NCBI GenBank assembly: GCA_025201375.1
Contig: JAIWZP010000007.1
Location: 372,001 to 436,000, forward strand
Length of the DNA stretch: 64,000 nucleotides
Direction of reading: 5' to 3'
Source of the DNA: Gongronella butleri
Taxonomy: Eukaryota > Mucoromycota > Mucoromycetes > Mucorales > Cunninghamellaceae
Shown: piece after piece, positions 1 to 16,274 of the stretch
Numbering within the stretch: position 1 is the stretch's first letter
How the letters are laid out: every line of letters begins with the position of its first letter
Translations under genes and position numbers: made by a program
Notes under the pieces: model-generated
Told to the model about the DNA's origin: nothing
Database searches by the model: none
The model's input: the letters and a program-made list of their open reading frames with translations, nothing else

Positions 1-3000
1 TGTGCGAGTGTTTCAAAGACACTGAGCAGCTGTACACGATTTTTGCGGAGGACCTCGAGAGTGACCTGGCAAGCTTTTTGGAACTCGCCCTGGTGGTGTG
101 TGACGCCCATGGCGTCGAGGAGGTTCTTTGTGAGTCGGAAGGGCACGATTTCAGGGACGGTGAGATTCAGGCCGCGGTCAAAAATCATGTTGACGTCGAC
201 GTGGACGGTGTCGCCGTTTGTGGCGTCAAAGAGCAAGTTTTCTGCGTGGCGGTCGCCGAGGCCTAGCACGTAGCCGACAATAGACATGACGGCCAGCGAC
301 CGCACGTACCGCGACCGGCTGGCAAACCAATGCGATGGTTCGGGGAAATGCTCCAAGAACCACTTGTAAAACACAGCAGGGCAGCGCGGCAGCACCACGT
401 CGGAAAAGACGCGTGTCTTTTCGTCGGGCTTTTTGCCATCGAGCAGGTGCCGGATTTGCGACATCAATGTGCGGTGCTCAATGCCTTGCGATTGCCACTC
501 GGAAGTCACAATGCTCTTTAGCGCGTTCAAATTGTTGATCCACTCGATTAGGCCCCACCGGTCACCCAGTGGAATCACCGCATACGTGCGAATGTCTAAC
601 AAAAAAAAAAAAAAAAGGAATTAGCCCGGTGACGCGTTTTTTTTTTTTGATTCTTTTTCGATTTTTTTATCATTCTTACACAATTGATGCTGGCGCGAGC
701 TGACGTTTTTCTTCAAAAAGGTGTTGATCATGGTGCTGAATTCCATGGTGCGCGCGTCCTTGCGAAGATCGTCGTTTCTTTTGCACAAAAAGTGGTATTG
801 CTTGCCATTGCTTGCGACAAAGGTGAAGCGCTTGGGTGCCTGGAGCGATTTCATGACAATGACGTCTGGCAGGATGCCCTGTATCGTGGGCAGGTCGGCA
901 GGGTACGGGTCGTGCTTTTTGTACGGCATGGCCTCATGCTCAGGCAACGTTGGCAGCAATGCGGATTCCAAAGGCACGCAAATCTCCAGGTGCTTCATTT
1001 GCAGCAATGCAGGGAATTTGTGCAGCGTCGCATTGGTTGTGTCCGCACCAAAATCTTCCTTGGCCACAGCCGATAATTGTCGCGTCAGCTCGCGCGCTTG
1101 CTGTCACACACGAAAAAAATAAAATAAATAAAAACGCGTCAGTGCCCTATTTTTCCGCCCCCTCTTTTCTTTCTCTTTCTTACCTCAAAAGCCGTCAGCA
1201 CATGAGGGTATGCCATGGCCTACAATCCATAGAGACGAGAAAAATAAGCAAAAATGATAAAAAACGCGCATAAAATAAAATAAAAAGGGACCTTACGTCG
1301 ATATTGCAGATGATTTGAGAAAGCCGGTCGCGGACAAGTCTATCTGTGGAGTTGTAGGATGCCTGGAGTGCCCATGCGGTTGTCTTTGGGTACGAAAGCA
1401 GCACCTTTGTAATGATGATGGCCAAAATGTCGGCCACCTCGTCATCGCCGATGGTCAGCCTGGATACGAGGCGCGGCAGAATGAGGCCAAACTAGATTCA
1501 TACCCGATAAAAAATGAGGATCAGTGTCTCAAGAAGCCAATTGGCACACATTTTTGTTTTATTTTACCTGGTAAGGCTGTGCTGTCTCTGCAAAGCGACG
1601 CATCAGATTGTTCATGTCAGAGTAGCCTTTTTTAATGGCCTCGACCAGTTTTCGGTCCTCTCTATATGGGAGGAAAAACAAATGAGTGTCTCGATATCCC
1701 CCCTTTTTTTTTTTTTTTTTGCATTCTGTATGCCCTACACTCTGCTGATGGTGCGCATTTCTTCTGCAAATTGCATCCAAATGGACAAGAGGCGCGGCAT
1801 GGTGTGATAAAAGTATTTTGATCCCCTGTTGAGGGCCTCGACGTACAATTCGCCCACCGAAGTCAGGATGCGATGGCTGAAAAGAAGCGTGTTAGATGCG
1901 TCATAAACACGAATTGAGTGAAAAAAAAAACCCCCCCTCACATTTGCTTTTGATGCTTTTTGTTGTCTGCCAGGCGGTCGTAAAAGCTGCCCTGCATGAA
2001 ATGGGGCTTCTCGAATCTATAAAAAAAAAAACAAGGTAACGCGTCAGATGGAGCGGGAGGAAGGTCAAGACACACGAAAAAAAAAACGAAAAACGGGCAT
2101 ACGTGGCGCCTTCTTTTCTGGCCTCGAGGTAGATTTGCTGGGTATCCTTTGGTAGTGCGCCGATATTGTCAGTGTACTTTGCACGCAGCAGCGTGGCATT
2201 GACGTTTCCGCGAAGTGCGGGGTCCTCGAGGACCTTGATGGCAGGGCGTGTCTGGCCAATGGCATTGTACCATTTGGCGTGCTCAATAAGTGCGCGCGGG
2301 TCCTCTTTTTCCTTGCCGGTGAGTGCGTGAAGCGTGGCCATGAGCGCGACGTCTGTGTCATTTGCCTTGCGAGCGGTCTTTGCCAGCAAGAGCCACAAAT
2401 CGCGCTCGCCTGGGGCCTGCTGGATGGAAGGTAGTGGCGGTGATGACGGCATTGCCGGCTGGCCATGCTCGTTGTTATTAAAAAGTGGCGCCATGGCATT
2501 GGAAGCGGCATGGATGGCGGCGGACGCGTCGGGTTTCCAAAGCGTGTATTGCGACGCGATTTGAAAGTCTAGCAGCGCGCGTTGATCGCGATAAAGCGGG
2601 GATGTGAAGGCGAATTGGCGGATCCATGCTTTTTGGTACGCGTCGCGCGCGTCGTCGGGCTGGTCGTGGAGCAACACGCTACTTTCGAGGTCGTGGACGC
2701 GCTGCAGCCGCAGCACAGACTCGAGCGCCTGGTGGTATGACTGCGGCCCAGCCTGTGTGAGCCGCTCCACCTCGAGCGCCTTGGCACTCTTCAAATCGCC
2801 ATAAGCCGCCGCCCAGCTGCGCGTCTGCAAATGCGACAGCGCACGCGCAATCAACGCGTCAAACGATGATTCGTCCATCGGCTCCCGTGCAAATTTATGC
2901 AATTGATTCTATGAAATAAAAAAAAGGGCGGTGCGGAAACAAGCGCGTTAAAAGAAACCATGGAAATGCAAAAAAAAAAAAAAAAAAAAAAAAAAAAGCA

Positions 3001-6000
3001 AAAAAAAAAAACAAAAAAACCCCCCCTCGCCCTCTTTTTACCCAATTGCCTGTTTTCCACGCAACCTCGAGGCGATAGCCATTGAGCTGTTTGCGTAGGT
3101 GAGGCATGAGGTCGATGGCACGACTGGTGTAGCTCATCATGCGATCGTAATCGCCCAATTGGCGCAGACAATGGATGTAGCGGGGCATGAGCGTGTGTGT
3201 GGTCTTGTCGTCGGGCATGTTGCGTGGGATGTGGATGGTGGAAGTGACGCTGCGCTGGCGCTTGACGCGGTCATTGTCATATTTGCTGTGTTCTGCGCCG
3301 TCGAGAACGTGTTCATAAAAGAGCTGTGCCTGTTTCCAGTGGCCGAGGGTCTCAAAGTGCAGGATCTGGTGCTCCGTCTTCCAATACTTGACGTACATGG
3401 CCAGGACAGCCGTGACGGCGTCGGTGTTCTCCATGTGGATGTAAATCTGGCACAAATTGTCGAGGTCGTCGGATGTGACGGCACCCGCGCGCTCCAGGGT
3501 CGCCTTGATGCCCAATTCCAGGTGCATGAGCGCCAAGGGGTAATTTTTGGTTCGAAAAGCCGCCTTGGCCATCAAGTCGTGCGGAATCGTGTCCAAAAAT
3601 TGGCGGATGGAGCGAATCTCGTTTTGTTGCGCGACTTTGGCCACCCCTTTTTTCTGCCGCTGTCGAATCCAACTGCGGCAGTATTCGATGATGGCCACCA
3701 CCATCTTTTTTTTTAAAAAAAAAGTCATCAGACTGCCTGCTTCCTTTTTTTCTCTTTTCTTTCCCTCATTTTTTCTCATTTATTTTTTCTCTGCGTCTTT
3801 TTTCTTTTTTTACCGTGAGCGATCCCTCTGTCATCTCGTGGTCGAATCCCTCGCCCTTGACGACGCCAACAACCTCATCGGTCAGGCGTTTGCATCGATT
3901 TGTATCGCCGTAGACGAGGATGGGGGTGATCATGTAAGGAATGAGATGCTGGGTGAGTGCGACGTTGCCTGTTGCGACCGAGGGCCGGCAAGCTTCAAAG
4001 AGGTTGAAGGCGGCGTGCGGCAGCAGGTCCTGAAGGCAATTGCACAGGTAATAGTAGAAATTGACGAGCCATTCGCGGAAAGCATGGCGTGTGGTGGCGT
4101 ACAAAGGGAATTGGAGCGCAGGGACGTCAATGTCGCCAACGGAAAAGTTGGAGACGAGAAAAGGGCTGAGAAAGTCTTGCATGTCGGGGTGGATGGACGA
4201 CCAAAGTGGATTGGTGGGGCTGCGCAGATCAATGGCGCGCAATACCTGCTGGATCGAGTATTGTGTGCAATGGTGGGCGGTTGAATTGTCGGGTGCAAGT
4301 GACAGTGACGCGGACCGAAAGGAAGTGGCATGATAGGTTGGGTACAAATGGCGTTCAATGAGGTCCAGGGCGAAATTTCGGGCTTCCTGGACGTCGTCGT
4401 TTAGATGATTGAGCAAAATCAGGCGATGCAAGCGTGTGTACTGCTTTGTTGCTGCTGCGGTGGACGAGGGGGAGGGCGATTGAAGGTGATTGGGGTCGAT
4501 GGCGCCAAGTTTGCCAAGGCAAGAAGCAGCAAGATCTTTTATGCCGTGGCGATGGGCATTGGTCTTGATCACGTGGAGAAGCAGATCATAGAGGGTGGCG
4601 AGGTGTGGCCATACTTTGTCGGAGAGCGTGTCGTTGCGGCAAAGATAATTGTACAGCGCCGTCAGTGCCTCAAACGAGCCATTGGCCGCGACATGACTCA
4701 TGAGTTGGTCCAGGGGAATGCTATCATTGTACAAGCTCTTTTCATCGGCGATCCATGCGGCCAAGTCGCTCATCTCGTCGTATGGAGGCAGTGCAGGCAG
4801 CTGGTGAAGCGTCGCCGGGAACGCCATCACCGCATTCTTAATGCATACCGTCAAATCTGCGACAACCGCGGACTTGAGCGAGTCTGGCACAAATGGGAAA
4901 TACTGCAGCACGCCACGCGCCACTGCGCACACGTGCCGACATTCCTTGGCCGACGACAGCGTGAGCAGACGTTGCCAGAACGCGTACCCCTCGTTTCCGT
5001 CGTCATTGGTATATTCGTCCATCGCCTGACCGACAGACAGCAGCTAAATCATTTAAAAAGCGTCCATAAGTCCATGGAAAAAAAAAGAAAAAAGCGCGCT
5101 CCCCCATCGAATCCAAAAAAAAGCGCGTTTTCTTTCCCTTTTTTCAATTTTTCTTTCTTTTTACCTGTGTCATAAAGTCCGCGGCACGGTGGCCAATCAG
5201 GTCGAGGACGGCGGTGAGCGAGGCCAAGGCGCGTCGGCGTTTGAGCGTGTAATCGATGGCAAGGGTGTCAAAAATGACGGTGTTGACGCTGCTGATGACG
5301 ACGGCCAAGAAATTCACAATGTACGACGCGAGCGTGTCGAATCGGTACGAGCTCCAGCCCATCACGTGTTCCAGCGCGGCCATCACCTAGTCAAAAAAAA
5401 AAAAAGTGGAGCAATTTTAGCAAATTTGCGTTTTTTTTTTGTGTTTTTTTGACGCGTCGGTGCGATCCCCCCCCTTTTTTTTTTTACCCTTTGCTTATTT
5501 TCGGCCCATAATTGCGAGATCAGATAGACGACGGCCTCTGTGATGTTGCCGCGCAGCATCTCTTGAGGCACGCTGGCGAGTTTGACATGATCGGGAAGGT
5601 TTGCGCCGTCGTGAATAATGTGGAGCAATGTGTCGTCATTATTGGCGTCGTGGATTAGGGACACGAGCAAGATGAGATGACCAAATCTCTGGTAAAATTC
5701 AGGCACGGGCAGGCGGGCGGCGGCAGCGACGGCATTGACCTTTTTGTGCAAAACGGCCAGATCGGCGGGCAGTGGGACAAACAGGTACGTGCAGACGTCG
5801 TGCATGTTGGAAAGCAGAAACGCGGGCAACGTCTTGTCAAACAGGTGTGGAATAATAGCGGCGACGGCCGGGCGCGTCTCCAGGGCGTCAATGGTCGCAT
5901 GAAGAAGCTGTCGTTGCTGATCGCCCGTGATCCTCTCGCTTGGACGCACATGCGACGGCAGCCGTGCAAGCCAAGCTTCCGCTGGTGCATGATCCCCTGC

Positions 6001-6036
6001 TAAAAGTGAAGAGAGAACAGGTAAAAGAGAGTCCAT
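1..6036 (-). CDS. ATR/Rad3/Mec1-type checkpoint kinase (3' end cut by window)
   Basis: PI3K-like protein kinase of the DNA-damage/replication checkpoint (nuclear; partner ATRIP/Ddc2 in the known family). Twelve exons read on the minus strand: 6036-5488, 5386-5165, 5043-3814, 3704-3042, 2908-2103, 2016-1942, 1876-1739, 1661-1568, 1491-1297, 1219-1184, 1100-680, 595-1, all phase-consistent, about 1,670 residues so far. Exons 4-10 are a FAT-type helical region. Exon 11 carries the kinase N-lobe (DDLRKDARTMEF); exon 12 has IRTYAVIPLGDRWG, the catalytic GLGDRHAENLLF and the metal-binding HVDVNMIFDRG, then VPEIVPFRLT, all closest to ATR rather than ATM, TOR or DNA-PK. The FATC end lies beyond base 1. 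Start at 6036 chosen because upstream frame is poly-Phe from a T-tract. Exon 3 could instead begin after the CAG near 5026. The N-terminal HEAT region is much shorter than in known ATR proteins (about 2,400-2,650 residues). Confidence 0.93.
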
Positions 6037-6330
6037 GCACACAAAAGAGGGCCACCACAGATAAAAGCGAAAAAGAGGTGGAAAAGAGTAAGCGAAAGAA
6101 AAAAAAAAAAAAAAAAGATGGCCCATTTTTCCCCGCCCTCTTTTCCTTTTTAAAAGCGCGTCGCGCCTAAAATGGGTTTTTTTTTATTTTTTTGCTCCAC
6201 TTGGTTTTGCCCATCCGTTTGGCCCGCAGCAGAGATCATGGATCAAGTCCCAAAAAAGTGAATCAAGTGTGATGATTGAATGTGATTTTTCATCGTTTCT
6301 GCCCCTCTTTTTTATTTTATTATTATTTTG
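6037..6330. other. Intergenic: ATR upstream region and ZW10-like 3' flank
   Basis: 294 bases between the ATR start and the ZW10-like stop, two genes in the same orientation. It holds an A-run near 6100-6117, T-runs at 6178-6192, and pyrimidine-rich sequence. No ORF of interest; it should contain the ATR promoter and the polyadenylation region of the gene at 15096-6331. Confidence 0.6.
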
Positions 6331-6698
6331 TCATTGGTACGCACTCATATCGATCTCATCATCGTCGCCCCAGCCGTCCTCGTCATCAAGATCGAGGTTT
6401 AAGAGGTCTGTCGCGTTTTTGGGTTGCAATTGCTGCAATTGGGGATTGGCGCTCACAGAGGGCTGTATGGTAGGCTGCGTTGCTTGCGACGCAGGCGCCG
6501 TCGTCGTCGTCGTTGTCGTCGTTGTCGTTGTTGTCGTTGTCGTCGTCCACGTCTGCAACACGTCTTCTTCATCTTCTGCCCAGCCATCTTGTTCCCACGC
6601 ATCCATGACCACAGGCTCATCTTGGTATTCCCATCGATGGTGCTCCACAGGCGGATGCGACCCATGGCCACTCGCAGAAGATGAAACACCTGTTGTAA

Positions 6699-6737
<39 letters not shown>

Positions 6738-7962
6738 TCAATTCGTGCTCAATTCACTCAGTTTCACATTATTTCACGCAAATCCACGTAAATGGTGGAA
6801 TTGGGCGCGTACCTGTCATGGGCGAGAGATCGACCTGGCTTGCATGGATGCCGCTATCGAGGCTGGTGTTGCCATCGGGCGACGTGACGAGCGAATTGGT
6901 GAAATCCAGCACGTCTTCATCATCGGACCAGCCCTCTTGCTCGACATGGAGCACGTGGGGCGGCTGAACGAGTGGCTGTAGCTGCTGATATTGCTGCTGA
7001 ACCTCTTGGTGCTGCGCAGAGGCCAGGTCTTGTTGAAGTGGCTGCAGCACATCCATGGTCACGTCATCATCCATGTCTGACCAGCCGTCGCGCACCTCCG
7101 TCGCATCATCCTCCTCGGGCGCCATGGAAGCCATGGTATCAGCGACAATCTGCAGAGTGGTGCGAATATTCATGAGTTAAAAAATGAAAAAAAGTGGAAG
7201 TGAGGAAAAAAAAAAGGGGCAATCCGATTTCTTCTTTTTCCTTTTTTTTTTTTTTTTTGTTACCTGTGATGCATCAGCCATTGGCTCATCCGTTTGAGCG
7301 GGTGTATCCATCGGCACAGAAGCATCCATTGATGTCGCAGGCTCGGCAATTGTCGCGACTGGCTCAAGCACGTCGTCGGCGGCCGCCATTGGCGCCATTG
7401 GGCCATGCTCAAGCACGAGCGCGTCGCCCTCGTGCATAAAAGACGCCAGCACGTCATCGTCCGCAGCAAATCCGTCGGCAGAATTATCATCATCTTGTTT
7501 TTCAGTGAAAACAGACCATTCTTGCGCGCTTTCATGCGTGCTTTCGCGTTTTGGTGTGCGCAGTGTGTCGTCGTGGGCCATGGCTTCCTCCAGCAATTCT
7601 TGGTCAATCGTGGCTGGCGACAACACCGTGTCAATCGCGGCAATCGCAGACTCAGCCGAATCTTGTGCAGCAACAGGGTCATCCGAGCTAATCTCCGGGG
7701 AAAGCGCGTCGAAAGAAGAGTGTTGTGCCACAACAGGTTCTTCCGGGATGGATACAACGGGCGCCAATGGGTCGGGCAAGCTCTCCGTGGCCGAAGGGGC
7801 AAAGGGACGCGGCGTAGCATCGTCGTCGTCTCGTCCGCCAGACACATCTGCAAGGTCGTGGTCACATGGCGGCGCAAGCATGTCCTGAGAGAAGAGAGAG
7901 TGAGTCGTCAATGTCAGTAATTGGATGCAAAAGACCTTTTTCTTTTTTTTCTCTCTTTTTCT

Positions 7963-7999
<37 letters not shown>

Positions 8000-10900
8000 G
8001 GCCAATTTCACCCCTCCCCTTCCCCCCTTTTTTTTTTAAAAAAAAAGATGTACCTGATCTTGGACGGGTGGTGTGGTGGTGGTGGTATTTTCGTGAGTTT
8101 CTAAGGATTGTTGTACAAAAGCGATCTCTGAGGTGTTTGGCGGTGGGCTAATGGCGTCTGCGGGCCAGCGCGACGTGGTATCAGCGAGGAGGTCGAGCGT
8201 GGCGTCTTGGTCGCCATCCTCTTCATCATCGTCATCGGGCAGTGCATTGATATTGGCGGCGAGGGATGGGGTTTCTGTGGCCATGGCGGGCGATGCCGCG
8301 TCCAATTGGGCCAAATCTTGCAACACATCGTCGTCATCGGCCCAGGCGCTTGCGTCCTGGTTGTCCGAGTCCAAAAATGCCATGGGCGTCTCCAAGACAT
8401 GATCAGCAAGCAGCGCATCAATGTCCGTGGCAAAGGACAGTGCTGCAGTGGCAAGATCTTGCACAGCAGGCTCCTTTTCCAAAAATGCCGCGTCACGAGT
8501 CGCTTGTTGGAGCGCCTCATCGTCGGCCACAGCCCACGACGTGCTCGCCTCTGCATCACCGGCGACCGTCTCCATCATGAAAGGAACCGTGGTTTCGTCG
8601 TAAAACGCATTTTGGTGCATGTTTTTGTCGTCTGTGGCAAAAGCAGCCGTTGCTTGCTGATCGACAGGTTCGGCGGGCGCGATGGGCTCGACGGGCTCGC
8701 TGGGCGCGTCCATGGAAGGGGCAGGTGGCGATGTTTCCGCATGTTGAGCCAAATCGCCAAGAAGATCGTCTTGATCGTCCCAAGCACTCGTGTCTTGCTC
8801 ATCGATGGTCTCAAAGAGAGCCTTGTGTGCGTCGTCGACCGCGTCTGTCGGAGACGCGCTGTTACTTGCTGCGCCACTTGCCGCAGCAACCGTGTCCTGA
8901 GGCAAATGTTGCAAAACATCGTCGTCATTGCCCGCCCAAGCACCTGCTTGCTCCTCGTCAGCACCAATGGATGGCTCCATGGCTGCACCATCCTTATCAG
9001 CAACATCCGCATCATCCAACACATCCAAATCAGCCGCGGAGCCGCTGGTCATCGCATGGACCACGTCTTGCGCGCCATGATGTTGGTTTCCGTCTTGCTT
9101 TTCATCGTACAATGCGCCGCTATCCAATGATGCTTGAGCTGCCTGGTCAGCAATGGGAGAGAAAAGGTCGTTTTGGATTTCAATGGGCGGTGCAGTCTCA
9201 AGGGGCGTGTCGCTGACCGCATTGGATGTAAAATCAGCTTGATGGTGAACCAGTGGTACATCCGTGCCGATGTCATCATCCCAAGCACCTTCTTCTTGCG
9301 CCACCGCTTCTTCCTCTTTAGGCTGCAGGGCCGTTTGAGCCATTGAAACCACAGGCTCCGTGATCTCCGTGGTCGTCATCGTGACCGGCTCATGACCTGC
9401 TGCCTCGCCGGACAATGCCGTATCCACGAATGTCATTGGCTCTGTCACTCCCAGTAAAACATGGTCATTCGTGGCCGTCGCGTCGCCAGAATCTAATTAA
9501 TCGGCGCGGTCAGCCATTTTCTGCTTTTTTTTTCTCATTTTTCTCATCTTTTTTTTTTTTCTTTCTTACCAATGGCCAGGTCCTGGACGTCACCCAATGG
9601 CACATTCACGTCCCACTCAACGGACAGGGCGCCGTGATGGTCTTGAGCATCATCTTGGGGTGCCATTTCCAGGTGGAATGCGGTATCTGCAGCATGCACG
9701 GCCGATGGCGCTGCGGAAACATCGATTTCCGCATCAATGTTGTCGGCGCACGCGCCATGTTCGTCTTGCGTGTCATTGATGGGCTCGACGGCCGAGTCGG
9801 TGGCGGGCGGCGCGCTTGAAAGATCGATTTCCGCGCCAATGTCGTCCGACCACGCACTGTGATCCTCGTTTTCCTGGACATTGCTTTCAGATGGCATGTC
9901 ATGGGCGGGCTCGACAAGATCAATGGCGCGCGGCACGCTCGGTACGTCGATTCCCACGTTATTGTCGTCTGACCAGGCGCTTTGTTCATCGTGGACGTCA
10001 TTTTCGGGCTGCCATTCAAGGTGAGGGGCCGGCACAGGATCATGCGCGGCATTGTCAAGCTCGGCGGCAGCAATGGTCGAGGCGGGAGGCACGCTTGGCA
10101 TGTCAATGCCAATTTCCACCTCCATTTCGTCCGACCACGCGCCATGGTCCTCCTGGACCTCGTTTTCTGGTTGCAATTCAAGGCGCGGGGTAAGAGCATT
10201 GTCGTGCGCGTCACTGGCAGGTTCGGCAGCGGTGTCGGTGTCGGTGGCGGGTGGTATGCTCGGAATGTCGATTTCAACGTCAATGTCATCCGACCACGCG
10301 CCATGATCTTCCTGGACCTCGCTTTCTGGTTGCAATTCAAGGTGAGGGGTAGAACCAGGCTCATGCACATCATGAGCAGGCTCATTTGTGGCGTTCGAGG
10401 CGGGTGGCAAGCTCGGAATGTCGATTTCCACATCCATTTCATCCGACCAGGCGCCATGATCTTCCTGGACCTCGTTTTCTGGTTGCAATTCAAGGCGAGG
10501 AGCACGAGCATTGTCATGCGCGTCACTAGCAGGTTCGGCAGCGGTGTCCGTGGCAGGTGGTAAGCTCGGGATGTCGATTTCCACATCAATATCATCCGAC
10601 CACGCGCCATGATCTTCCTGGACGTCGTTTTCTGATTGCAATTCAAGGTGAGGGGCAGAAACAGGCTCATGCACATCATGAGCAGGCTCATTTGTGGCAC
10701 TCGAGGCGGGTGGCAAGCTCGGAATGTCGATTTCCACGTCCATTTCATCCGACCAGGCGCCATGATCTTCCTGGACCTCGTTTTCTGGTTGCAGTTCAAG
10801 GCGAGGGGTAAGGGCATCATCACGTGCATCATCGGCAGGCTCGGGGACGGTGTCGGTGGCGGGTTGTGCGCTTGACATGTCGATTTCCACATCCAATTCA

Positions 10901-13900
10901 TCCGACCAGGCGCCATGGTCCTCGTGGACGTCGTTATCCGGCTGCAATGCAAGACGAGGGGTGACGGCATCATCATGCGTGTCATTGACGGCTTCAACGG
11001 CAGAGTCTGTGGCGGGCGGTTCGTTTGAAATGTCCATTTCCGCGTCAGCATCCTCCGACCACGCGCCATGATCTTCTTCTGGTTGTAATAAAAGGCGTGA
11101 GGCAGCAGGAGAATGAACATGCGCGTCATTGGCAAGCTCGGCAGCGAAGTTCGAAGCGGGCGGCACGCTTGAAACCGCGTCTATCTCGTTTGACCAGACG
11201 TTTTGATCATCGTGAGCGTCTCTTTCGGGCTGCTGCGATTCAATTGGAGGGATGGGGACGACTTTCTCTTGGGCGTCTTGGTCAAGGTCAAGCGCAGTGG
11301 TCATTTCCAAGGCGATTGGCACGTCCATGTCGTCTGACCAAGCGCCATGATCTTCCTGCACATCGTCTTCCGGTTGCAATGCGAATCGGGAGGCGTGGGT
11401 GTCTGTGACTTTGACGTCGGCCGCATTCATAGCAGCGGGAGGCACAATTGGGATGTCCATGTCATCCGACCAGGCGCCATGATCTTCCTGTTCATCCATT
11501 TCGGGCTGTAGAGCGAGTCGCGACGCGATGTTGGGGCTCTGTGCGTCCATGTGCGGTGGCGATGGCTGCACATCGCGTGCAATTGGCATGGTGGAGACAG
11601 CGGCGTCGATGGTCGCCGTCATGGGCGCAGGCACATCCATCCCAAGGTCCATGTCGTCTGACCACGCGCCGTGATCTTCAAGCGCGTCTTGCACCTCTTC
11701 GGGCTGCAATGCAAACCGTGATTGCACCTCGCGAGACACATGTGCGGGCTGTGGCGGCTCGGGTGGTACGCCTGCAAAAGCCATTTGATCAACTTTTTGC
11801 TCTTATTTCGCTCTTTTTTTCTCTTTTTTTTTTTTTTCTGGGCATGAATTGGATTCCTTACCTGCCGTGTTATCAAAGAGAGGTTCATAGGTCTCGTCGT
11901 CCATGCCAAAGTCGTCTGACCAAGCGCCATGGTCGTCGAGCATTTCTTGCGCTTCTTCCGGTTGCAATGCAAAGCGTGACGCGCTGTACGTGTCGCTTGT
12001 CATGCTGGTGTCACGTGCGAGTGGCGCAGGCTCAGGCGCATGATCCTCCTGCTTGGCAGCAGTTATTGGCTCGGTTGGAACTGGAGCAACTTACGAAATG
12101 ATTAAAAATGACAAAAAATAAAAAAAAAAATTAAGTCAGCGCGCTCTCTCTTTTTTTTCCCCCAATTTTTTTCTTCTTCCTTACCTGAGGTACCAAAGAG
12201 CGGCTCATAGGCATCATCATCATCATCGGACCATGCTCCGTGCTCTTGCGATGCATCTTGATCAGGTTGCAAGGCAAATCGCGAGGTGTTGCCGGCAAAT
12301 GTATCCAAATCGTCACTAGCGTGCCTTGACCGCTCCGCCGGCATGGCTCGCTCTTTGCTCACAGCTGTAATCGCAGGTACTATTATATTCACAGGGAAAA
12401 AAAAAGAAAGGTGAACATCACACGGAAACCACACGAAATCTCGCAAATTCAATAAAAAAAAAGTCCCTACCCGGCTCCATGTCGTCATCATTGGACCAAT
12501 TGTCATCGTTCCAAGCACTGTCAGCCGCCGTGGGTTGCACGTCCCATCGGTCATGGTGATGGGATTCCAAAGTGGACAAAGGTTTTGAGGATGTCAATGG
12601 GGCCAATGGCTCGGATGGTGGTGGTGGGATTGGCGTGCCCTTGAGGTCTGCTGAGCGTATGGCTTGGATGGATTCGTCGCGGCGCGGGGTATCAGCAAAG
12701 AGGGCGATGACGAGGTGAACGAGCTGGTCATGTGTGAACATGTGAAGATCGCCTCGGTACAGGGCGGCGAGGATGTCCTTCATGGTCATGTCCAGAATAT
12801 CCTTGACGGTCCAGAACATTTGCCAATGGGGTAAGTAGGCACGCAGCTGCATCTCGCTCGGGGTGGACGTATCGTCTTTCCAAAAGGCGATATTTGCGAA
12901 TTGCGCGACGCTGTTGAATGCACTGGCCATGTCACGCGACTCGTCGGCTCCAATGTCGCGCATGGCGAGGATGCCGTGGATCAGACGCGACAGGATCGCG
13001 TCCACGAGTGCGGTGATGGTCGCGTGGAAAGTGTCATTGTCGACGGCATCGTGGATGGTGGCTGCCAGCTTGTTGACGTGATCCATGGCCAATTGGATGA
13101 CCTGCTCGAGGGACATGGGTGCCGAGGAATGATTGGGCGAAGCAGAGGAGGCAGAAGAAGACGATGTAGCTCGTTCATGCGATCCCGATGCCGTGTCATG
13201 TTGCTGGATCAGGCCCCCGCTCTGTTGATCAAGCTGCTGCTCCTTTTGGTATTCCCATGCACGGTCGAGAAGGGCACTGATGCTGTTGAGAGGGCGGAAC
13301 AGAACCATGTTGTGCCAGAATTTGGCGAGATCTCGCAATTGCTGGGCAATGGCGTGACTATTTGGCAATTGGAGTGGGCGATCAGCCAGCCAGAGACAAT
13401 CATTGTAGAAAACAACAGCATGTTGTGCCTGGATGAGCTGCGGGCGGTGGATGCTGGGCATGATGGCCATATACATGGCAAGAATCGCTTCGGCTGACGC
13501 ATGCAGCGCGGCAATCGTACAAGGATATCGATTTTCGCCAAATTCGTCCTGCTTTTGCTCTTGTTCTTTTTGTTGCTGTTGTTGTTGCAGCCGCGCCGCC
13601 TCGTCCAAGAGATCCTGCAACATGGCCCAGATCACACGCGGCGTCTGTGTCAATTTGCGTCCATGTTCATCGGGCTCGGCGTCGTAAATCTTGCGAAGCA
13701 GCACCTGGCGCGCCTTGCTGAGCACTTTGGCCTTGCGTCGCGTGGCCATATGTTCATCCACTTGCCCGGCATACCGCGCCATGGACACGTCCAATGTGTT
13801 GCTTGTCCCCGTGTATTGCACCAGCCATTGATGCTCGATATGTTTTGAGAATGCCGCCATTTGTGCCAACGACGCGAATAATGCCGGATCCGCCGCCGCT

Positions 13901-15096
13901 GATGGGATTGCTGGTGACAAGACATCGTCAATCATGTGTTGCAAAAGATCCGGGAGCAGCATGTGTGCGCACAGATGCTTCAATTCGCTGCTTTCATCGA
14001 TTTCACCACTTTTGCCGCTTTCATTGCTTTCGTTGTTGCTTGGAGCAAAGACGCGGTTGAAGAAAAACGCAAGAGAGGCATCCACGTCCTTGAGAACGAG
14101 CAATGCATGGTGCACGGCGGCCTCTTGCTTGCCGCTGATGCTGCCAACCTCTTGCTCCTCGTCGTCCATATTTTCATGCGCAACATCGATGCTAAGCGTG
14201 CCATGGTCATGGTCCATCACTAAGCGGCGTCTTGTCCCCGGCACGAATGGCTGCATGAGCTGATGGAAAAATGGCTTTGCCTGGTGCTGGATGGCGGCGA
14301 TCTGGCTGTGTTGCATGTCAAATGCCTTGGACGCTTGCAGCAGCTCAGCTAATGGCACATGGCAGGCCATGGAAGGACGACGACGAGGAGAAGGATCATT
14401 GTCGTCATCGTCATCGTCGTCGTCGTCAGCAGCAGCAGCAACAGCGGCGCGTGATGTGATGGTGACGGGGGCCACATTGAGCTCGCAAATTGTGTAAACA
14501 TGTAATTGAAGACCGTTATCTTGGTGGATGCACTGCGCAATGCCGTCGGTGATCATGGTGCTGATGTGCGTGTGCAGACTTTGTGCGCGTTGTTCAAGTG
14601 CGTGGTACGCGCGCAGATTGGGCGGATCGTCATGGAATTCGGGTCGTTGGATGGCTTGTAGGCGTGTGGCCGCCTGATGAATCTTTCCCTGGCACACCGC
14701 ATGCTCCACCGCGTCGAGTTGCTTTGAGAAATCGAGCAGCATCGCGCACAAATCCAGCATCGTGCGATTGAACCCCAAATGCTTGTCGTTGGTCGCATGC
14801 GCCGCCATGTCGCCCTCCAGTTGCTTGGAAGCCTTGTTCGCATGCTCCACCACCAGCTGACTCTGCGCCATCGTGTCCTCAATCTGCTCGTGCGTCCGCT
14901 TGCACAGCTGCTCATTGAACTTATACGTCGGGAACACCGACCCGCGTCCATGATGGCGAAGCGACGACCCAAGTTGTGAACGCGACGCTTCCCCGGCTTC
15001 TTTTAGTAACGTCAGCCATTGCTCCAGCGTCCCGCCATCGACAAGGTCTCTGCTGCTGCTGCTGCTACTCGGCAACAGCTCTTGGACAACCTCCAT
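6331..15096 (-). CDS. ZW10/Dsl1-family tethering protein with giant Trp-acidic C-terminal tail
   Basis: Eight exons (15096-12471, 12379-12185, 12089-11862, 11771-9570, 9492-8054, 7884-7264, 7149-6813, 6689-6331) join in phase to 2,668 residues. Residues 1 to ~845 are a ZW10-family protein: an N-terminal helical region (FNEQLCKRTHEQIEDT, then FNRTMLDLCAMLLDFSKQLD) and a C-terminal domain (ILAMRDIGADESRDMAS, VIALFADTPRRDESI). ZW10/Dsl1 tethers Golgi-derived COPI vesicles at the ER; animal ZW10 also serves the kinetochore RZZ complex. Known ZW10 proteins are about 780 residues. Here the last ~1,800 residues are low-complexity and acidic, with about 27 tryptophans each set in D/E residues: EDHGAWSDDMD-type in exons 2-4, SAWDDQDDLL-type in exon 5, DGWSDMDDD and DGWGDDDEID in exons 7-8. 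Exon 1 already ends in a double-Trp acidic motif, so the tail grows out of the ZW10 frame and is not a neighbouring gene. Start chosen at the first ATG after a T-rich leader. Identity high, tail function inferred. Confidence 0.88.
6498..6548 (-). repeat. Trinucleotide tract encoding poly-threonine
   Basis: A GTC/GTT run on the plus strand reads as a tract of about sixteen threonines in exon 8 of the ZW10-like tail, just before the last tryptophan motif. It is an imperfect microsatellite and probably length-variable. Confidence 0.8.
9570..11771 (-). repeat. Coding tandem repeat array, 15 units of about 51-60 codons
   Basis: Exon 4 of the ZW10-like gene is almost wholly made of repeats. Each unit has a basic/hydrophobic lead (SRFALQPE or PRLELQPE), the core EDHGAWSDDMD, a short acidic run (VEIDIPSLPP) and an Ala/Glu/Asp-rich spacer. 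Thirteen of fifteen cores keep the tryptophan; the two nearest the exon's 3' end read HGACADN and HGALSVE. Central units are 51 codons (153 bp) and alternate between a DDID type and a DEMD type, making a 306-bp higher-order period. Confidence 0.9.
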
Positions 15097-15265: not shown

Positions 15266-16274
15266 ATGGGAAACGACGGTGGCTCCATCCCTCGACGCAT
15301 CGAGCTTGTCAAGGAAAAGCAAAAACAAGTCAAACAGAACCCCAATCTCCAGCGTGAGGCTGCATGGTTCCATTGTGCCCTGTCAAAGGTAAAATTTCGT
15401 GGCCTCTTTTATGCGAAAAAAAAAAAAAAAAAAAAGACGGGCAACATTGACGATTCTCTCATTCTTTTGCTTCCAGAGACGCCTGGAGCAGCCTATTGTG
15501 GCCGATCGCATGGGCAAGCTATACAACCAAGAGGTGGTCATTGAATACATTCTCGATCCAACCACGTACGGCGACGCCGACAAAATCTGCCCTTATGTGA
15601 CGTCCACAAAAGACGTCAAAAAGCTCAATCTCACCGTCTCGCCGCAGCGCACCCAAAATACGACCTCCTCCGTCATGGGCAGCCTCGAAAACGAACTAAA
15701 AAGCAAGTTCATCTGCCCCGTTTCCATGAAGGAAATGAATGGCAAGCATCGCTTCGTCTATCTTGCCCAATGCGGCTGCGTCTTTGCTGAACAGACCCTC
15801 AAGGAGGTGTCACAGCACGAGTGCCTGACGGTAAAAGAAGAAAAAAAAAGGGCCCATCGCTTTATCCAAGACCACTTAACTTATTTTTTTTCTCATATTT
15901 ATTAGTGTGGCAAGCCATTTGACCCGAGCGACATCATCACCATCAATCCCACGGACAAGGACGAGATAGAACAGATGAGGATAGCTATGGAAGAGCGCAA
16001 AAAGCACAAAAAGAAAAAGAACAAGCGCCCCGCCAATGGCGACACCAATGGCACAGCCGTCAAAAAGACAAAGGTCGCCGCCGCTGCCCACGGGCCCGCA
16101 TCACAATCCATGGCCTCGGCCGTCCTCGACAAGGTCAACAAAGAGCTCGCCGAACGACACCAAAAGAATGCCGTCTCTTCCAATATCCAATCGCTCTATA
16201 GCAACAAGGAGAAGGACAAACAAAAGCAAAATGGCAATTACCTCACCATGGGCACATTTAATCGCTACAATTGA
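15266..16274 (+). CDS. RTF2: Replication termination factor 2
   Basis: Nuclear RING-like protein that in fission yeast and mammals acts at stalled or programmed-paused replication forks. Three exons (15266-15388, 15477-15830, 15906-16274), both introns phase 0, 281 residues, the usual length. The N-terminus MGNDGGSIPRR is diagnostic of the family. The middle carries a degenerate RING: CPVSMKEMNGKHRFVYL, then QCGCVFAEQ and, across intron 2, HECLT-CGKPFDPSDIITINP. The C-terminus is lysine-rich (HKKKKNKRP) and ends in GTFNRYN. Intron 1 starts with a run of about 17 A. Divergent from the ZW10-like gene. Confidence 0.95.

Follow-up and report, generated by a model that had tools for sequence, protein, structure and literature searches.

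In yeast, tryptophan motifs of Dsl1 that lie in an unstructured acidic region bind delta-COP and alpha-COP (excerpts of PMC4868844 and PMC7145657). This region is central in the protein (excerpt of PMC4206994) and sits at the tip of the complex, roughly 20 nm over the membrane (excerpt of PMC4868844). The acidic region for binding of coat protein complex I (COPI) is described as missing from the metazoan and plant homologues of Dsl1 (excerpts of PMC4868844 and PMC4206994) and from those of aquatic fungi (excerpt of PMC4868844), and in mammals UVRAG has been reported as required in its place (PMC4868844, in excerpt). The ligands of delta-COP constitute a tryptophan-based class with an acidic context, termed diTrp (ELM LIG_deltaCOP1_diTrp_1; PMC7145657, in excerpt). 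Here we analyzed a 64,000-nucleotide stretch of the Gongronella butleri genome (the window; source genome of 33 Mb in 110 contigs), which contains a ZW10/Dsl1-family gene whose product ends in a very long acidic tail rich in tryptophan.

The window protein resembles the yeast Dsl1 lasso system in that it belongs to the same family and carries an acidic, tryptophan-bearing, presumably unstructured stretch with diTrp motifs, in a genome that also encodes Sec39 and Tip20/RINT1. Unlike the lasso, its tail is C-terminal, is about 1,850 residues long, and contains 34 tryptophans, mostly in lineage-specific units with a single tryptophan each. Because the tail is C-terminal and not central like the lasso at the tip of the tower, we do not class it as a lasso, only as an element that may work like one. 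Metazoan and plant ZW10 proteins (NRZ complex) share the head domains with the window protein but not the acidic COPI region. The delta-COP motif of ArfGAP1/Gcs1 represents the same class of acidic tryptophan motif, and the ArfGAP of this genome has one such motif at its C-terminus, whereas the ZW10 tail has an array. The Dsl1/ZW10 family and the principle are known, while the C-terminal site, the lineage-specific amplification, and the scale were not described in the open-access matches listed. Schmitt (2010) may have described acidic regions in zygomycete Dsl1. Among the matches listed in the open-access literature, no such ZW10/Dsl1 tail was found, and no paper paired Dsl1 with Mucorales, or Mucoromycota with coatomer and tethering; the word "lasso" was not found in the available part of PMC3785458.

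Head and tail of the Gongronella ZW10 protein

The protein of 2,668 amino acids is encoded by one minus-strand gene (15096-6331) with eight phase-consistent exons, the joined frame of which has 0 internal stops and closes with TGA at 6333-6331. The head scored above the cut-off of three Pfam families, ZW10_C2 (56.9 bits; cut-off 27), Dsl1_C (37.1; 30), and Zw10_middle (29.8; 23.6), and just under that of ZW10_C (22.8; 25.8). It weakly matched the Dsl1 chains 8ftu, 3k8p, and 8eki of the PDB (expectation value, E, of 1e-5 to 8e-5) and was 45% identical to Hesseltinella ZW10 over 638 aligned columns. By its conserved middle and C-terminal helical domains, the head is a member of the ZW10/Dsl1 family. 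For the N-terminal domain, which pairs with RINT1/Tip20 in this family, the Pfam models gave no match at E 1, yet residues 97-185 aligned with the Hesseltinella protein. An earlier note, made from the letters of the window alone, had described a full ZW10-family protein fused to a tail of about 1,800 residues; this was borne out by the exon phases, by the Pfam matches of the head, and by exons 2-8, which contribute 1,793 residues. The span given there, 6331..12471, covers the tail part, and the head lies outside it (15096-12472).

We counted the tail from the residue after 822, where the conserved head ends. Residues 823-2668 have a net charge of -381, and 31 of the 34 tryptophans lie in exons 2-8, as compared with about 27 in the previous count. 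At least three of the 12 residues flanking a tryptophan were Asp or Glu for 30 of the 34, and at least four for 26; to place each tryptophan within an acidic cluster, as had been done, is thus slightly too strong. On average, 4.53 of the 12 flanking residues were acidic as compared with 2.75 in composition-preserving shuffles, a value exceeding all 2,000 of them (p=0.0005). GAWSDD, one of two motifs named previously as predominant, occurred seven times and the other, SAWDDD, not once; the broader patterns GAWS[DE][DE] and [GS]AW[SD][DE] were found 12 and 16 times, respectively.

Along the minus strand, exon 1 (12471..15096) encodes the ZW10/Dsl1 head (residues 1-875) and contains, near its end, the first acidic diTrp motif, WNDDNW (12496..12513; residues 862-867), at the head/tail junction. 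Its second tryptophan, W867, occupies a column that was nearly invariant in an alignment that is itself uncertain in the tail. Exons 2 (12185..12379) and 3 (11862..12089), both of phase 1-1 with GT-AG borders, each encode a single unit, SRFALQP..HGAWSDD..YEPLF and SRFALQP..DHGAWSDD..YEPLF, respectively. The bulk of the DHGAWSDD repeats and 15 tryptophans are found in the 734 codons of exon 4 (9570..11771), followed by the diverged motifs GAWDDD, SAWDDQDD, and SAWADDDD in exon 5 (8054..9492; six tryptophans), a single tryptophan (EWSVF) in exon 6 (7264..7884), and two (DGWSDMDDD and EGWSDDEDV) in exon 7 (6813..7149). Exon 8 (6331..6689) carries the stop and five tryptophans, including those of the second diTrp motif, WEQDGW (6580..6597; residues 2581-2586), and the last one, W2656 (6370..6372), which lies in EDGWGDDDEI, 12 residues away from the C-terminus. 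A Pfam scan of exons 4-6 yielded 0 domains above cut-off. The seven introns are all of the GT-AG type, 77-169 bp long, with a GC content of 28-34%, and GC at third codon positions reaches 65% in the head as against 57% in the tail. Retention of intron 1 would extend the frame by 17 codons (12418-12470, minus) before a stop, giving a short ZW10 with the first diTrp motif only, which is a possible alternative product.

Fourteen [GS]AWS units span W925 to W1657 (9850..12233, minus). Within exon 4, Tandem Repeats Finder detected a 153-bp (51-codon) tandem array (10105..11076, minus) with 6.3 copies and 77% matches. Eleven of the 14 units have Met, Ile, Leu, or Phe at +4 from the tryptophan, a residue that might stand in for the second aromatic residue of diTrp; the repeat unit also holds a second recurring element, R(F/L)xLQPE. 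Comparison of exons 2 and 3 by blastn gave, with the shared intron set aside, merely short matches at the exon ends and donors, so that exon duplication is suggestive only. No other copy of the repeat was found in the genome, exon 4 matching only itself and exons 2-3 (all three candidates scored).

Other features of exon 8 included DLLNLDLDDEDGW near the C-terminus (6331-6420, minus), which contains LLNLD, a sequence similar to a clathrin box; in Hesseltinella, DVLQLDLD follows the second diTrp motif. A run of Thr codons (6499-6547, minus) reads on the plus strand as 16.3 copies of CGT. Two motif classes considered for the tryptophan units were dropped: the LC3-type LC3-interacting region, since Asp or Glu was found at +3 from the tryptophan in 25 of 34 cases, and the AP-1 ear motif, since HGA preceding the tryptophan does not fit.

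Tryptophan tails in related fungi

Orthologues were collected by two region-limited protein searches, with candidates of about 718-2,283 and 597-1,899 residues, which together gave 16 proteins: search words from residues 690-832 retrieved Hesseltinella alone, and words from residues 228-585 of one orthologue (P0002) retrieved the others. Distant orthologues and proteins above these lengths escape such searches, and another species may therefore have a longer tail. The whole of exon 1 as query gave 0 matches at E 0.001 among 8,000 candidates scored, a result probably due to low-complexity words crowding the candidate list.

Fifteen of the 16 orthologues, all from Mucorales and Umbelopsis, ended in a Trp-acidic tail that measured 203-1,116 residues and held 3-16 tryptophans, the window tail being the longest among those found. 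These tailed proteins (P0002-P0016) are from Hesseltinella, two Absidia, Cunninghamella, Mucor, and Mycotypha, together with five Umbelopsis proteins (two of U. isabellina) and four grouping with Umbelopsis. The remaining one, P0017 of Mortierella, is tailless and ends 10 residues past the head, although its model could be incomplete, as those of Absidia repens (P0004) and Mycotypha (P0007) appear to be. In the head tree, which has long branches and an unusual letter make-up in the window row, the window protein grouped with Hesseltinella vesiculosa (100/100), and a wider group included Cunninghamella and the two Absidia, a placement that makes the host most likely a member of Mucorales close to Cunninghamellaceae, to which Hesseltinella belongs. 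The earlier note had named absence of the repeats from every relative as a ground against it, and the tails of the 15 orthologues favor it in this regard. Its view that this fungus turned the lasso into a brush has to be modified, as the tail is C-terminal instead of central as in yeast and is shared with these relatives.

Acids were enriched around tryptophan over shuffles in all 16 tails, that of the window included (p 0.0005-0.021), and Gly or Ala preceding the tryptophan was enriched (p<0.05) in every tail except that of P0004. In the four nearest relatives, WNDDNW has the counterparts WNEDNW (Hesseltinella), WDEQGW (the two Absidia), and WNQDSNW (Cunninghamella), and WEQDGW is matched by WNQDGW in Hesseltinella and WDQDSGW in Cunninghamella. 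Ten of the 15 tailed relatives have their last tryptophan no more than 14 residues from the C-terminus (e.g., GGWSDADEELF, SGWSDAEEDIF, GGWDW, and GGWEDW); the distance is 21-30 residues in P0002, P0009, P0010, and P0013, and 144 in P0004. The units between are characteristic of lineages: DHGAWSDD in the window, WEPFDD in Umbelopsis, GWNLSDHEE in one Umbelopsis group, GWEVDEP in U. isabellina, GWGDDDED in Mucor, and DGWDQDEP in Cunninghamella. Motifs of the WxW or WxxF type were also present in relatives, namely WEPF and a C-terminal WDW in Umbelopsis and WGW in Mucor. When units were compared for 8 of the 16 tailed proteins, those of six were closest to units of their own protein.

A Trp-free stretch (around NYASNRIAGEFTNVVGSMIGA in P0014, and in P0011 too) recurs among the Umbelopsis tails ahead of the C-terminal WDW/WEDW and possibly forms an amphipathic helix. 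The ZW10 of Umbelopsis nana (P0008) was deposited as "ribosome bioproteinsis protein ytm1", which seems to be a misnomer.

Proposed COPI capture and competing explanations

As the best explanation of the whole, we propose, with a probability of roughly 0.5, that this is a Dsl1/ZW10 of Mucorales and Umbelopsis with a C-terminal COPI-capturing tail that combines a few diTrp sites with many single-Trp sites. Instead of an internal lasso, the coat-binding element would be a disordered, strongly acidic C-terminal tail that extends from where the helical head stops. Docking on the mu-homology domain of delta-COP would fall to a small number of canonical acidic motifs of the diTrp (and Trp-Phe) type, chiefly WNDDNW at the junction and WEQDGW near the end. 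The single-Trp unit DHGAWSDD would have been multiplied between the diTrp motifs in this lineage, largely via tandem duplication, and such units would most likely serve as weaker contacts with COPI (delta-COP or alpha-COP). Many weak units would raise avidity, reach, and the count of coat complexes held simultaneously. Tail disorder, COPI binding, the division of labor between diTrp and single-Trp sites, and the effect on reach are what we infer from the sequence. Some kind of COPI capture by the tail is probable, the diTrp sites serving as the chief contacts for delta-COP, and we see about even odds for the single-Trp units adding COPI contacts too.

Likely components of such capture are encoded in the same genome. 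Besides the Dsl1-complex partners Sec39 and RINT1/Tip20 (RINT1_TIP1 family), we found alpha-COP, via its C-terminal family COPI_C, and a delta-COP mu-homology domain with 231 bits to PDB 5a1u and 93 bits to 5fk0, which we take to be mammalian and yeast delta-COP, respectively. An ArfGAP ending in DDSDDDWSGW was taken by eye to be of the ArfGAP1/Gcs1 type; together with the conserved mu-homology domain, this end indicates that ligands of the diTrp class exist in the genome. COPI capture is supported indirectly by this ArfGAP end and by the diTrp motifs at the start and near the end of the tail, and the COPI link drawn in the earlier note is likely to this extent. Genome searches for Zwilch (kinetochore) and Nbas_N (beta-propeller of NAG) gave no match, and since their controls were equally silent, these searches cannot show absence.

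Several observations weigh against the proposal. The delta-COP ligand consensus was reportedly given as W-n(1-6)-[WF] (Suckling, 2015). In the window tail, only four tryptophans start such a site (WNDDNW, WSDDF, WSVF, and WEQDGW), below the shuffle mean of 6.07 (p=0.89), and the pattern reached p<0.05 in only 3 of the 16 tails (P0002, P0008, and P0016). The amplified array is thus not built from the canonical motif: its units carry one tryptophan each, unlike the described diTrp class. Dozens of COPI sites, one in every repeat, as had been claimed, are therefore unproven. In addition, the acidic tail begins past the last conserved head residue and is not central. Units of Absidia cylindrospora scored higher with Mucor than with their own protein, and those of U. 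nana with two other Umbelopsis. A genome scan for sequences encoding [GA]-W-S-D-[DE]-[DE] found 13 places, two within the ZW10 gene; judged by eye, none of the other 11 clearly belonged to a further protein carrying this motif among acidic residues.

The lack of W-n(1-6)-[WF] enrichment in the window tail also speaks for a different, less likely arrangement, in which COPI is bound via the few diTrp motifs only and the DHGAWSDD array serves another partner, such as a different trafficking adaptor recognizing single acidic tryptophans, the tether bridging two systems. Consistent with such a split, the diTrp motifs at the start and near the end of the tail are common to the nearest relatives and the single-Trp units between them are lineage-specific, and the unit carries R(F/L)xLQPE as a second recurring element. 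On the other hand, all eight proteins compared had single-Trp acidic units, mostly with a small residue before the tryptophan and acids after it, which fits one partner class, and no candidate second partner for the array was identified.

An improbable alternative is that the array reflects drift, a disordered tail tolerating repeat slippage with a copy number of no consequence, as the 153-bp tandem array, the long low-complexity stretches, and the wide range of tail lengths in the 15 tailed relatives might suggest. The units themselves argue otherwise. Between the 14 [GS]AWS units, the ratio of nonsynonymous to synonymous divergence (dN/dS) was 0.041 in the core (nine codons around the tryptophan), against 0.484 in the downstream and 0.694 in the upstream flank, and among seven regularly spaced units it was 0.069 in the core and 0.37-0.68 around it. 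These units are not independent of one another, small insertions misalign some flanks and inflate flank dN, and the ratios carry no confidence interval. When ratios of nonsynonymous to synonymous differences (pN/pS) were taken in 51 sliding windows over five units spaced 51 codons apart, the three lowest fell on the core. With its dN/dS far under that of the flanks, the core makes the repeat copies look selected, and its high synonymous divergence (dS of 0.57 for the seven units and 1.9, near saturation, for the 14) means that the similarity of the units is not accounted for by recent gene conversion. Distinct tryptophan units in distinct lineages also speak against drift.

It is very unlikely that the tail is an acidic tryptophan ligand solely for another machine and ties the tether to actin or motors: acidic tryptophan motifs do serve Arp2/3 (acidic A motif) and kinesin light chain (W-acidic motif), but the head family and the ArfGAP terminus point to COPI. 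Least likely of all is a gene-model error, with the head ending near exon 1 and exons 2-8 forming a separate gene, for although read-through of intron 1 would produce the short form, the introns leave little promoter room, predicted proteins of 15 relatives join the same head to a tail, and exon 1 itself contains the first diTrp motif.

Within the proposed COPI-capturing tail, a stronger version is possible, and we put it forward tentatively: the tail may be a selected multivalent coat-capturing polymer, in which two strong diTrp sites flank an array of 14 or more weak single-Trp sites that would hold many coatomers or vesicles at a time, maybe condensing at arrival sites of the endoplasmic reticulum, and which evolved in parallel in several lineages of Mucorales and Umbelopsis, with a different unit in each.

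Genomic surroundings and significance

The ZW10 gene is followed downstream by exons of an ATR-like kinase gene of equal orientation (2898-5043, minus), with M-HEAT_ATR scoring 59.9 bits in 2898-3779 and 26.9 bits, just under the cut-off of 27, in 3769-5043. An open frame at 5386-6183 had 0 family matches. On the other side is an Rtf2 RING-finger gene (122.6 bits; 15393-15902, plus), the matched exon of which starts about 300 bp upstream of the ZW10 start.

For vesicle tethering, where it matters how many contacts are needed per coated vesicle, fungi with 3 to 34 tail tryptophans provide a natural titration series of valency. The presence of a C-terminal element of the coat-binding type in Dsl1 of Mucorales and Umbelopsis, and not in the single Mortierella orthologue found, is relevant to the timing at which direct binding to COPI arose in fungal Dsl1. 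Finally, the conserved single-Trp unit is a candidate for a COPI-binding motif that has not been described.

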